Made by a program: the position numbers and the translations under genes. From Litchfieldia sinesaloumensis (GTDB lineage Bacteria > Bacillota > Bacilli > Bacillales > Bacillaceae_L): a stretch of 64,000 nucleotides of DNA. The stretch lies in contig NZ_LT732529.1 in assembly GCF_900156865.1 (NCBI RefSeq), forward strand, positions 2,792,460-2,856,459, read 5' to 3'. Below are positions 14,295 through 17,005 of this stretch, in pieces. Within the stretch, counting starts at the first letter, position 1; each line of letters starts with the position of its first letter. The notes beneath the pieces are model-generated. The model did not search any database. It had not been told where the DNA came from and saw only the letters and a program-made list of their open reading frames with translations.

Positions 14295-14588
14295 TTAGAA
14301 CCATCCTCTTTTTGTGTTTACGTGTGGAAAGTCGAATAATTTTGCGTTATTTTCACTAGATTTATTCTTTGCTGTTTGTTTTTTTCTGTCTCTTTCAAGT
14401 AGTCCGTCCAATTTTTGTATTGCCTTTTCTAACTGCATGTCATTTAGCTCACCCTTGGCATATAAACTACATAGCATCCCATACGCAATTGCTTTTGTAT
14501 CAACATCTACAGTTACGACTACGTCTACATCTGAGTTACCGCTATGGCCAAGATTATTATTTAATTTATTTTCAATAGGTCTCTGCAT
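14295..14588 (-). CDS. Small Asp/Val-rich protein, possibly spore-associated
   Basis: 97 residues from ATG 14586-14588, chosen because AAAGGAG lies 7 nt upstream. The N-terminal part carries the alternating acidic/hydrophobic run SDVDVVVTVDVDTKAIAYG. A helical part follows (YAKGELNDMQLEKAIQKL), then a basic tail. Alternating DVDV stretches resemble those of some Bacillus spore coat proteins such as CotX. That is only a resemblance, and no family is assigned. It forms a pair with the acidic gene at 14654-14983, separated by a hairpin. Confidence 0.7.
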   Translation of the reverse strand: MQRPIENKLNNNLGHSGNSDVDVVVTVDVDTKAIAYGMLCSLYAKGELNDMQLEKAIQKLDGLLERDRKKQTAKNKSSENNAKLFDFPHVNTKRGWF

Positions 14589-14611
14589 TTTAAATCTCCT
14601 TTCTTTCAAAT

Positions 14612-14640
14612 AAAGGGATACTAATATCTAGTATCCCTTT
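14612..14640 (-). terminator. Hairpin between the two acidic-protein genes
   Basis: Perfect 12-bp arms AAAGGGATACTA/TAGTATCCCTTT with a 5-nt loop, followed on the minus strand by ATTT. It is probably a partial terminator between the genes at 14654-14983 and 14295-14588. Confidence 0.6.
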
Positions 14641-14653
14641 TGAAAACCATGAC

Positions 14654-14983
14654 TTAAAACTCAAAATCTTGGCGTTGACGCTGGTCCTGATCTTGGTCCT
14701 GCTCCTGATCGGAGTCAGCTTCAGATCTTGCACGCACTCTTGCACGAGAATCGCTATCTACTCTAATATCAAGATCCAATCTAGAGTTTCCACTATTGAA
14801 TACTTTTGCTTTTGCGATATTTGTGTTCTTATCTTTTACACTCACATCGTTTTCATTGTCTACATCTTGATCAGATCTAAAGTCAAGATCAGTATCTACA
14901 TCACTACGAACTTCAGTTTCATTATTATTTCTAGAGCCACGATTGTTCCCAAAGATATCTGGGTTTCTCCATACATTACTCAT
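14654..14983 (-). CDS. Highly charged Asp/Asn/Gln-rich small protein, possibly spore-associated
   Basis: 109 residues from ATG 14983 behind a strong GGAGGAAG site. The composition is extreme: repeats such as RSDVDTDLDFRSDQDVDNEN, then DLDIRVDSDSRARVRARSEA, and a C-terminal DQEQDQDQDQRQRQ. No hydrophobic core or membrane segment is visible, so it is probably disordered. It forms a likely two-gene unit with the gene at 14295-14588. A spore surface role is a guess from composition and from the host being a Bacillaceae member. Confidence 0.7.
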   Translation of the reverse strand: MSNVWRNPDIFGNNRGSRNNNETEVRSDVDTDLDFRSDQDVDNENDVSVKDKNTNIAKAKVFNSGNSRLDLDIRVDSDSRARVRARSEADSDQEQDQDQDQRQRQDFEF

Positions 14984-15235
14984 ACTCTTCCTCCTTTCCT
15001 ATGTGATACTGTATTTTATTCATAGGAAATGGATTCGATTGGACAAGTGTGGGAAGACAATGGTGTATTTTTGCATACATGTGTAATATAACGGACGATT
15101 TTTTTACCATATTTATCCCCAAAACATTAGATTATCGTAATATTATTTAAGAAAAAAGGGTTCTTGCAATCTAATTGCAGAGAGTCTAAAATAAAAAGAA
15201 ACGTATGTTCTGCAAAAGAGAGGAGGAATGCTATA

Positions 15236-15643
15236 TTGCAGACCTGGGAGGCATCTTATATTGCAGGTATAATTGATGGAGAAGGTAGTATATCATTAAC
15301 TAGAATGCATGAGAAAGAACATCGTAGGCCATGTATTTCAATTGCGTCAACAGATTTCGAACTCCTTAGATATGTTCAAAAATTAACTGGGGGAGTTATA
15401 AATAATAAAAAGAATTATAAGCCTGATCGGCATATGGACTCCTATACTCTCACTATAAAGAAAAAGGAAGATGTTTTTTATACGCTAGAGCATATTATGC
15501 CATTTTTAAGAGTAAATAAGAAAAAGAATCGATCTGTTTGGATCCTCGAAAACTATAATAATGTTACCCCTCGAAATGGAAAATATAGCCCTGAATTATT
15601 AAAAAAGAAAGCGATTTTTGAAGAATATTTTTTTGAAATGTAA
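15236..15643 (+). CDS. LAGLIDADG homing endonuclease
   Basis: Small single-motif LAGLIDADG protein, 135 residues. The motif reads YIAGIIDGEGSISL near residue 9, with the acidic catalytic residue in DGEG. Residues 17-110 show the usual beta-sheet-plus-helix pattern and end in NKKKNRSVWILENY. Single-motif members work as homodimers that cut long asymmetric sites. I chose the TTG at 15236 because AGGAGG lies 9 nt before it and the protein then begins directly with the motif. It is convergent with ssrA, and its stop is 2 nt before the ssrA terminator. Its natural target is therefore likely the ssrA T-loop (inference). Confidence 0.85.
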   Translation: MQTWEASYIAGIIDGEGSISLTRMHEKEHRRPCISIASTDFELLRYVQKLTGGVINNKKNYKPDRHMDSYTLTIKKKEDVFYTLEHIMPFLRVNKKKNRSVWILENYNNVTPRNGKYSPELLKKKAIFEEYFFEM

Positions 15644-15644
15644 A

Positions 15645-15672
15645 ACGGACTCACCATAATCGGTGAGTCCGT
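15645..15672 (-). terminator. ssrA terminator
   Basis: Perfect 11-bp stem ACGGACTCACC/GGTGAGTCCGT with a 6-nt loop, followed on the minus strand by TTTTA. It lies between the tmRNA 3' end and the endonuclease stop codon. Confidence 0.85.
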
Positions 15673-15707: not shown

Positions 15708-16350
15708 TGGTGGAGACGGTGGGACGTGCTTTTCCATGCTTTCGTCATGGCACTGACTATATCTTGAACCTGGTAGTTACAGGTCCTCCGGCGTATTATG
15801 CGTAATATATTTTGTACCTATATCAGGTAGGATTACGCATCCTAGTACTACCATAACCTAGATGGCAGCCTATAAGTCGATACACGGCTGTTAGATTACT
15901 CTACATACCGCTCGGCATTGCCTTATCGCATCAAGTACGACTTAGGTTTCACCGATAAAGCCGGATTATCACTTATGTGTTACCACATAAGGCGACTAAT
16001 TACTAATCGAACCCACGTCCAAAGATATTGGCACTTAAGCTTCTACGAGTGTAGTCGATATATTAGCATTTCGCTAACTTTTCGGCCTATCGACAGGCTT
16101 CCAAGCAGCTAGTCTGGTTGTTCTCTTCCTTTGTCCTCAGACGGCGAACTCCGGCGTAGCCCACTTAAAGTGAGTCCCTGACCCTACCACATGGGCGATG
16201 GAGGGAGGAACCGCTATAGACTGTTATTAAGCAGCTAAAGCGAAGTTGTTGTTTTCTTTGCCAGTTATAGGCGTTGACGTTTTAACGAGGCCGATCCCCT
16301 CGACTCGCAACTTAAGCTCAAACTACCCCTGTCGAATCCGTAGCGTCCCC
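15708..16350 (-). ncRNA. ssrA: tmRNA gene, interrupted by a group I intron
   Basis: Transfer-messenger RNA that rescues stalled ribosomes together with SmpB. The 5' end GGGGACGCTACGGATTCGAC pairs with the 3' end CGTCTCC, which is followed by an encoded ACCA. The tag frame reads GGC AAA GAA AAC, giving the tag (A)GKENNNFALAA ending in TAA (about 16228-16263). The T-arm is split: GTGGGTTCGAT lies at 16006-16016 and TCCCAC at 15719-15724, with 281 nt between. Without the insert the mature RNA is about 362 nt, a normal length. It lies just after smpB and has its own promoter and terminator. Confidence 0.95.
15725..16005 (-). ncRNA. Group I self-splicing intron in the tmRNA T-loop
   Basis: 281-nt insert in the ssrA T-loop. 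P1 can form between exon CGAU plus intron UA and the downstream UAGUCG, giving the required U-G wobble at the 5' splice site. P2 is a perfect hairpin CUUAUGUG/CACAUAAG closed by a GUAA tetraloop. The S motif AAGATATAGTC and its P7 partner GACTTATA are present near the 3' part. The intron ends in G, immediately before exon TCCCAC. Removal restores a 7-nt T-loop, TTCGATT. There is no open reading frame inside. T-loop group I introns are known from tmRNA genes of other bacteria. Confidence 0.9.
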
Positions 16351-16537: not shown

Positions 16538-17005
16538 TTACATCTTCTGTCGTTCTCTGAATGCACGCTCAATATCACGCTTTGCTTCCTTTTTCTTGAG
16601 GTCTTCACGTTTGTCGTATTTTTTCTTACCCTTACCGAGACCTAGCAAAAGCTTTGCATAGCCATTTTTTAAATAAATCTTAATTGGCACCAGTGCGTAT
16701 CCTTCTTCTTTTGTGAGTCCAATCAGCTTATTGATTTCTTTTTTATGAAGAAGTAGCTTTCGTGTCCGAAGTGGATCATGATTATAACGGTTACCTTGTT
16801 CATAAGGGCTAATATGCAGGTTATAGAGAAACATTTCCCCATTATGAACTCGCGCGTATGAATCCTTTAGATTTGCACGGCCATTTCGAAGAGATTTAAT
16901 CTCGGTACCTTGAAGAACGATCCCTGTTTCATAGGTTTCTTCAATAAAATAATCATGATTCGCTTTTTTATTTTGTGCGATTACCTTGCCTACACCTTTT
17001 GGCAT
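16538..17005 (-). CDS. smpB: SsrA-binding protein
   Basis: Cytosolic OB-fold protein that binds the tRNA-like domain of tmRNA and takes it to stalled ribosomes. It has 155 residues. Typical motifs are the N-terminal [40 protein letters not shown], and the basic C-terminal tail [20 protein letters not shown] that enters the mRNA channel. It starts with an AGGGGGAA site. It sits directly upstream of ssrA, the standard Bacillus order, which supports the ssrA call. Confidence 0.97.

Follow-up and report, generated by a model that had tools for sequence, protein, structure and literature searches.

Introduction

The first intron in a tmRNA gene was reportedly described by Williams in 2002. Passages of a later survey used here give 883 unique tmRNA intron sequences in 21 phyla, of which 36 (4.1%) hold an internal endonuclease gene (PMC11915505), and the tmRNA intron of Clostridium botulinum is stated, in an excerpted source, to have been shown to self-splice (PMC2729099).

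Collaborative (trans) homing of the F-CphI type, as outlined in the excerpts used here, joins an ORF-less group I intron to an adjacent free-standing endonuclease. To our knowledge, such homing is known only from phages. The partial accounts describe F-CphI with the psbA intron of a cyanophage and a second phage system (PMC6083498, PMC3984707).

The window, by which we mean the whole 64,000-nucleotide stretch of Litchfieldia sinesaloumensis DNA that was analysed, carries both an intron in its ssrA (tmRNA) gene and, just outside that gene, a LAGLIDADG endonuclease gene. The protein resembles the homodimeric enzymes I-MsoI, I-CvuI and I-CreI in its single motif, its fold and its sequence profile. 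Those enzymes are encoded within introns and have 23S rRNA genes as their targets, whereas the gene described here lies outside the intron, beside ssrA, and its product is shorter (135 aa) and has a TPRNGKY-type end. The intron agrees with the published tmRNA form in gene, T-loop position 7, length of about 280-290 nt, -1U and terminal G, as far as the excerpts go (PMC11915505, PMC2729099), where we take a site between T-loop nucleotides 6 and 7 as the "position 7" of the survey (PMC11915505); it belongs to the known class of 883 sequences. The available text of that survey counts internal endonuclease genes only and mentions none beside the gene, whereas the window has none inside and one outside (PMC11915505). 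The setting also differs from the phage systems: a bacterial chromosome, an RNA gene, a LAGLIDADG protein and dozens of loci, as against phage protein genes and, for F-CphI, an Endo VII type enzyme, as described in the same excerpts. In the open-access literature, taken apart from supplements and subscription papers, we found no report of an endonuclease gene next to a tmRNA gene that carries an intron. The introns are already known as a class; what is new is the endonuclease gene paired with one outside the gene, and this gene is a more unusual part of the locus than the intron.

The interrupted ssrA gene

The features of the locus, in window coordinates, are:

15236..15643, plus strand: free-standing gene for a single-motif LAGLIDADG homing endonuclease of 135 aa, with a TTG start preceded by GAGGAGG (15220-15226); from Pfam, homologue alignment and model fold
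15645..15672, minus strand: terminator-like hairpin in the gap that separates ssrA from the endonuclease gene, followed by a T-rich tail when read in the ssrA direction; from a pattern scan, 12 pairs
15708..15724, minus strand: ssrA 3' exon, TCCCAC + acceptor CGTCTCC + ACCA; from sequence, pairing with the 5' exon and the complete tmRNA once the exons are joined
15725..16005, minus strand: group I intron, 281 nt, without ORF match, between T-loop nucleotides 6 and 7, first base after -1U and last base G; from RF00028 and covariation
16006..16350, minus strand: ssrA 5' exon, comprising the 5' strand of the acceptor stem (GGGGACG), the part that codes for the tag, the pseudoknots and the T-arm 5' half ending GTGGGTTCGAT; from RF00023, acceptor-stem pairing for the 5' end and ARAGORN on joined exons
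16224..16262, minus strand: proteolysis tag frame GKENNNFALAA; from ARAGORN on script-joined exons, gene positions 89-127
16538..17005, minus strand: smpB, the tmRNA partner, upstream of ssrA; from Pfam SmpB, E 1.3e-63

The Rfam tmRNA model RF00023 matches the minus strand at 16342-16004 (166.2 bits, E 7.7e-66) and its match stops abruptly at the T-loop. ARAGORN found no tmRNA in the whole window and none in the unspliced ssrA stretch; given the exons joined by script, it returned one complete tmRNA with the tag GKENNNFALAA, in agreement with the first-pass annotation, which had held that removing the intron gives a perfect 7-nt T-loop. The signs by which that annotation recognised a group I intron inside the ssrA T-loop were all found again. 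On the minus strand the T-arm halves GTGGGTTCGAT (16016-16006) and TCCCAC (15724-15719) are 281 nt apart, with the insert at 16005-15725; the P1 U.G at the 5' splice site is present, and invariant in 33/33 aligned introns; a P2 hairpin with a GUAA loop (CUUAUGUG-GUAA-CACAUAAG) and an S motif AAGAUAUAGUC with a P7 partner GACU are in place; and the terminal G recurs in 58/58 introns extracted by script. Rfam, covariation and ARAGORN on the joined exons support the identification.

The Rfam models for tmRNA and for the intron were named at that stage as a check. The former matches, as given above. The latter, RF00028 (Intron_gpI), matches 15734-16015 on the minus strand with E 3.4e-8 (801 bases searched) and 38.5 bits, below the Rfam gathering cut-off of 50 bits, which is a curated value and not a biological criterion; because of this shortfall a whole-window scan at gathering scores gives no RF00028 match. 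The remark that introns at this site are known from a few other bacteria was too low an estimate, given the 883 sequences and 21 phyla in the survey's available text (PMC11915505) and the 90 of 397 genomes of the order reported below.

A group I fold drawn by hand, with 82 pairs in 14 helices including the P3-P8 core, was compared with 33 homologous introns and their 8-9 nt exon flanks, a deliberately diverse set that covers Bacillales, Clostridium and other Bacillota. The drawn pairs were formed in 94.4% of cells, as against 32-39% in slid controls. Changes on both sides occurred in 51 of the 82 pairs (shuffle mean 27.7) and in 263 cells (shuffled mean 76.7), values that none of 500 shuffles reached. 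The four pairs of P7 give no covariation because they are invariant in the 33 introns, and the weak helix P7.2a, the outer arm of P7.2, is paired in 57.3% of cells. A chance structure was ruled out by covariation set against the shuffled and slid controls. It is reasonable to predict that ribosome rescue in this organism depends on splicing of the intron.

Elsewhere, two loci (L128, L274) have introns of 430 and 425 nt, compared with the usual 270-290. The terminator-like hairpin is weak by itself, because shuffled sequences averaged 0.7 such sites. Beyond the endonuclease gene, at 14295-14983 on the minus strand, the window encodes two small charged repeat-like proteins with no Pfam match.

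The LAGLIDADG gene beside ssrA

The endonuclease gene, which lies outside the intron coordinates and was overlooked in the first-pass annotation, is convergent with ssrA, its stop being 64 bp from the tmRNA CCA. The open reading frame at 15164-15643 on the plus strand matches PF14528 LAGLIDADG_3 (28.2 bits, cut-off 22.5, E 2.4e-6) and PF00961 LAGLIDADG_1 (23.8 bits, cut-off 23.1, E 8.6e-5); although this longer frame opens at 15164, 21 aligned homologues set the start near 15236. The protein has a single motif, AGIIDGEGSI, whose D and E are invariant in the 21 homologues and align to DGDG of I-MsoI, and its C-terminus is the TPRNGKY block. Since the motif is single, the enzyme is probably homodimeric. 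I-MsoI is also the nearest among solved sequences (1m5x, E 4.1e-7; single-chain 3fd2, E 6e-16), and the best PDB folds for an AlphaFold model (mean pLDDT 92.2, pTM 0.85) are I-MsoI (Foldseek E 2.0e-7), I-CvuI and I-CreI. In motif, fold and a Pfam score over cut-off the window protein bears the marks of a LAGLIDADG endonuclease.

The nearest PHROG family is phrog_5046 (E 1.2e-16). It is labelled HNH endonuclease, a label that does not fit because the sequence and fold are those of a LAGLIDADG protein; the same naming of LAGLIDADG proteins occurs in PHROGs and in several phage records (phrog_5046; Lacusarx, WilliamBoone, CcrRogue).

Phage relatives

Some members of the family phrog_5046, the nearest one in phages, are relatives that lie at the tmRNA or tRNA genes of phages. 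A scan of viral contigs returned 172 relatives, and the best 80 of the 172 were analysed. The TxxNGxY motif was one of two search seeds and so motif bearers are enriched among the matches, but their linkage to tmRNA is not enriched in this way. The ten nearest viral relatives, at 31-41% identity, are exactly the ten of the best 80 with this motif; nine are at a tmRNA (two of these below the Rfam cut-off) and one is at a tRNA-Ser. At the Rfam gathering score a tmRNA adjoins the gene in five of them (L178, L180, L181, L182, L183), a permuted tmRNA surrounds it in two (L185, L186), where it occupies the intervening segment just after the CCA, and a tRNA-Ser lies beside it in L177. At this score, then, 8/10 of ranks 1-10 are linked (7 tmRNA, 1 tRNA-Ser) versus 0/10 of ranks 11-20; a permissive Rfam scan of ranks 1-10 adds a tmRNA at L179 (44.6 bits) and a weak one at L184 (35.4 bits). 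Further down, ARAGORN on the 60 loci L191-L250 (L251-L256 being outside the scan) found one tRNA and no tmRNA.

A search with the window protein listed nine records. In Sphingobium phage Lacusarx the endonuclease gene overlaps ssrA, and in Gordonia phage WilliamBoone it is part of a tRNA cluster, between two tRNA-Ser genes. In the stretches covered for the more distant relatives in Caulobacter CcrRogue, Streptomyces Sushi23 and Navo and Gordonia Hans, neither a tRNA nor a tmRNA is annotated, and the linkage is therefore confined to the nearest branch. The intron pattern had no match in the viral contigs, so that no vehicle for the intron was seen there. The position of these ten viral relatives, at tmRNA or tRNA-Ser genes with no visible intron, points to tmRNA as the target of the endonuclease, and within it the T-arm is the likely target, because it is a feature common to tmRNA and tRNA-Ser genes.

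Association of intron and endonuclease gene

In a family sample of 17 genomes, tmRNA was found in all 17, the intron in 11 and an endonuclease match in 10. The six intronless genomes have the T-loop TTCGACT, and in one of them (G011) endonuclease remnants adjoin the tmRNA; two genomes of the same genus as the window (G005, G006) have introns 95% identical to the window intron and no endonuclease match. The order was sampled with 397 genomes drawn evenly, counting as endonuclease matches all those with E <= 1e-3, remnants included. There were 390 genomes with tmRNA, 90 with an intron-type T-arm and 55 with an endonuclease match, and the reversed T-arm pattern had no match in the same 397. G031 was an extra intron candidate by its tmRNA score, for which the T-arm pattern gave no confirmation. 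An endonuclease or its remnant is present in 49/90 intron-bearing genomes versus 6/307 others, the latter including 7 without a tmRNA match, and the two elements are thus statistically associated (odds ratio 60, Fisher p 6e-31).

The arrangement is conserved. Each of the 40 copies within 1.5 kb lies on the 3' side of the tmRNA and is convergent with it, at 309-1440 bp from the T-arm, and five others (G001, G007, G144, G278, G312) keep the same side and orientation at 6.6-43 kb. In G156 the gene is 454 kb from its own tmRNA, and four matches are on other contigs than the tmRNA, although one of these genomes (G106) also has a second, adjacent copy. Intron presence is patchy within genera. A subfamily of endonucleases 33-39% identical and without the TPRNGKY block was found at L305 (G273), L306 (G332) and L307 (G129); the first faces a tmRNA, as described below, and the stretches around the other two contain no tmRNA.

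These counts bear on a reading as intronless homing, in which the protein is an ordinary free-standing homing enzyme that cuts elsewhere near ssrA, for instance at the tmRNA 3' end, the intron being a passenger in the same conversion tracts. We consider it rather unlikely. It accords with the phage relatives at tmRNA and tRNA genes with no visible intron, with the six endonuclease-positive genomes that are intronless and with G273, in which the intact 33-39% relative faces an intronless tmRNA, but the association is far stronger with the intron than with tmRNA as such (49/90 vs 6/307).

LAGLIDADG proteins can also act as maturases, and with the gene linked to an intron a role in aiding its splicing might be imagined for this one. 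The 41/90 intron-bearing genomes of the order with no endonuclease match, among them G005 and G006 with introns 95% identical to that of the window, speak against such a role as a strict need; the acids of the endonuclease motif are, moreover, invariant, and relatives accompany phage tmRNAs that have no visible intron. A maturase is very unlikely on this evidence.

Distribution in the wider Bacillota

A profile scan of genome contigs returned 172 relatives, of which the best 80 were analysed. Among these best 80 of 172, 65 face an intron-bearing tmRNA, 57 with a CCA and 8 without an encoded CCA (L103, L106, L107, L108, L116, L126, L149, L171); two face an intronless tmRNA, in Gracilibacillus timonensis and, at 1.1 kb, in Clostridium manihotivorum; and 13 have no tmRNA within the 2.5-kb flank, some of them at contig ends. 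The gap between endonuclease and CCA in the 57 CCA-bearing loci has a median of 52 bp (range 33-605), and none of the best 80 of 172 has the endonuclease inside the intron. The window's nearest relatives in this set include Fredinandcohnia quinoae. One record, Chryseobacterium sp. ISL-80 (L110), has a Bacillota-type intron and endonuclease and is probably mislabelled or a mixed assembly.

The pairing of intron and endonuclease is also found in Clostridium and other Bacillota. A phylum sample of 398 genomes gave seven endonuclease matches at E <= 1e-8, five of them outside the order: three with the intron and a convergent endonuclease (L258, L259, L260) and two with an endonuclease remnant beside an intronless tmRNA (L261, L263). 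A search of the orders to which three of these loci belong (22, 21 and 20 genomes) added L318 and L320, both with the intron and a convergent endonuclease, the latter with two tRNA genes between tmRNA and endonuclease.

Insertions were noted at two loci. In G312 (L310, 1987-6367), the one of the five displaced copies whose inserted DNA was analysed, a 1171-aa helicase lies between tmRNA and endonuclease; it matches HamB (Hachiman) in PADLOC at E 1.2e-45, its top PADLOC match being the candidate PDC-M23B (2.8e-48), and the block also encodes a 290-aa protein without a PADLOC match. It is possible that this block is a defence island at the tmRNA 3' end. In G055 (L316, 1749-3481) a 1.7-kb insertion is bounded by a repeated intron tail and tmRNA 3' end, as if it had integrated where the intron meets the 3' exon.

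With tmRNA genes described as integration sites in passages of the survey (PMC11915505), the endonuclease gene might itself have arrived as island cargo, through integration at the 3' end of the tmRNA, and its link to the intron be the outcome of a shared hotspot, as the HamB-like helicase block of G312 and the insertion of G055 could suggest. Most copies, however, keep one and the same orientation at a distance of tens of bp from the CCA, intronless genomes seldom carry the endonuclease, and in the displaced cases the insertion is between tmRNA and endonuclease, so that the endonuclease looks older than the island. We regard cargo status as highly improbable.

Selection and co-inheritance

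The endonuclease gene is under purifying selection. Of the best 80 of 172 loci, which as a selection favour good matches, 69 have a full-length open frame, and dN/dS was 0.04-0.20 in 7 of 12 pairs with computable dS, several of these having dS > 1. The open frames, the low dN/dS, the invariant motif D and E and the I-MsoI-like model fold together suggest that the endonuclease is likely to be active.

Across the 53 loci in which intron, endonuclease and smpB are all present, distances between introns correlate with those between endonucleases (r 0.63), and a partial Mantel r of 0.45 remained after removing smpB and tmRNA-exon distance, a value that none of 1000 permutations reached. Endonuclease and smpB are still correlated after removing the intron (r 0.36), and vertical descent therefore contributes. 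The endonuclease tree had weak deep forks and long branches and was not used for rooting. Intron distance was less than half the exon distance in 4 of 1378 pairs; introns closer than their exons in distant pairs are suggestive at most of transfer. A sign of co-conversion was sought at T-loop base 59, where all intron-bearing alleles have T and 52 matched intronless sisters have T (24) or C (28), and was dropped: T59 versus C59 does not discriminate, because splicing needs that U.

Another account would have the intron inherited vertically, or moved by reverse splicing, with its neighbour uninvolved. The 41/90 introns that have no neighbour are in its favour, but the association, the correlated divergence of intron and endonuclease and the patchiness of the intron within genera all speak against it, and we judge it extremely improbable.

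Collaborative homing as the probable explanation

An ORF-less intron with a free-standing endonuclease gene adjoining the interrupted gene is the arrangement of collaborative homing, and we class the locus as one that works like such systems. The comparative sequence evidence favours the interpretation that an ORF-less intron and a homing endonuclease dedicated to tmRNA probably have one target in common and spread together. In the simplest account, tmRNA-like genes are what this branch of endonucleases aims at, and in Bacillota it works jointly with the ORF-less intron found there, much as F-CphI does in its cyanophage (PMC6083498). Mobility would be supplied by the separate single-motif endonuclease gene, which lies on the opposite strand a short way beyond the 3' end of the tmRNA. 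Its product would cut intronless ssrA alleles at the T-arm, and the intron, by filling the cut site in its own host, would make that host immune while presumably being removed from the tmRNA by splicing. With an allele that carries the intron as template, mending of the break would copy the intron, the exon beside it and the neighbouring endonuclease gene in one event. Later, the endonuclease gene may decay, or islands integrating at the tmRNA 3' end may displace it, which would leave the endonuclease-less introns that dominate the published catalogue.

Several observations count against collaborative homing: the 41/90 genomes with the intron only and the six endonuclease-positive intronless genomes, the G156 copy 454 kb away and the 13/80 loci without tmRNA within 2.5 kb, and the absence of intron matches in the viral contigs. 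Nor is the T-arm an obvious site for a homodimer: its inverted repeat is imperfect and has a centre of 7 nt.

A broader reading extends collaborative homing to the family, and we would argue for it about as readily as against it. A branch of LAGLIDADG endonucleases with a C-terminal TxRNGxY-type mark, present in phages and bacteria, would be dedicated to tmRNA and some tRNA genes. In phages it would home beside tmRNA genes or inside permuted ones with no intron; in Bacillota it would act together with an ORF-less intron located there, which would amount to collaborative homing in a cellular form that extends across a phylum.

If this is true, it would explain the spread of tmRNA introns, only about 4% of which hold an internal endonuclease: the endonuclease would be outside the gene, where intron surveys do not look. 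Collaborative homing, described for two phages in the excerpts cited above, would extend to bacterial chromosomes, and the dozens of natural variants (intact, decayed, displaced and intronless) would allow tests of the route by which composite mobile introns are proposed to arise. Gene exchange between phages and their hosts would also have a likely bridge in a family that, in both, homes to a near-universal RNA gene.
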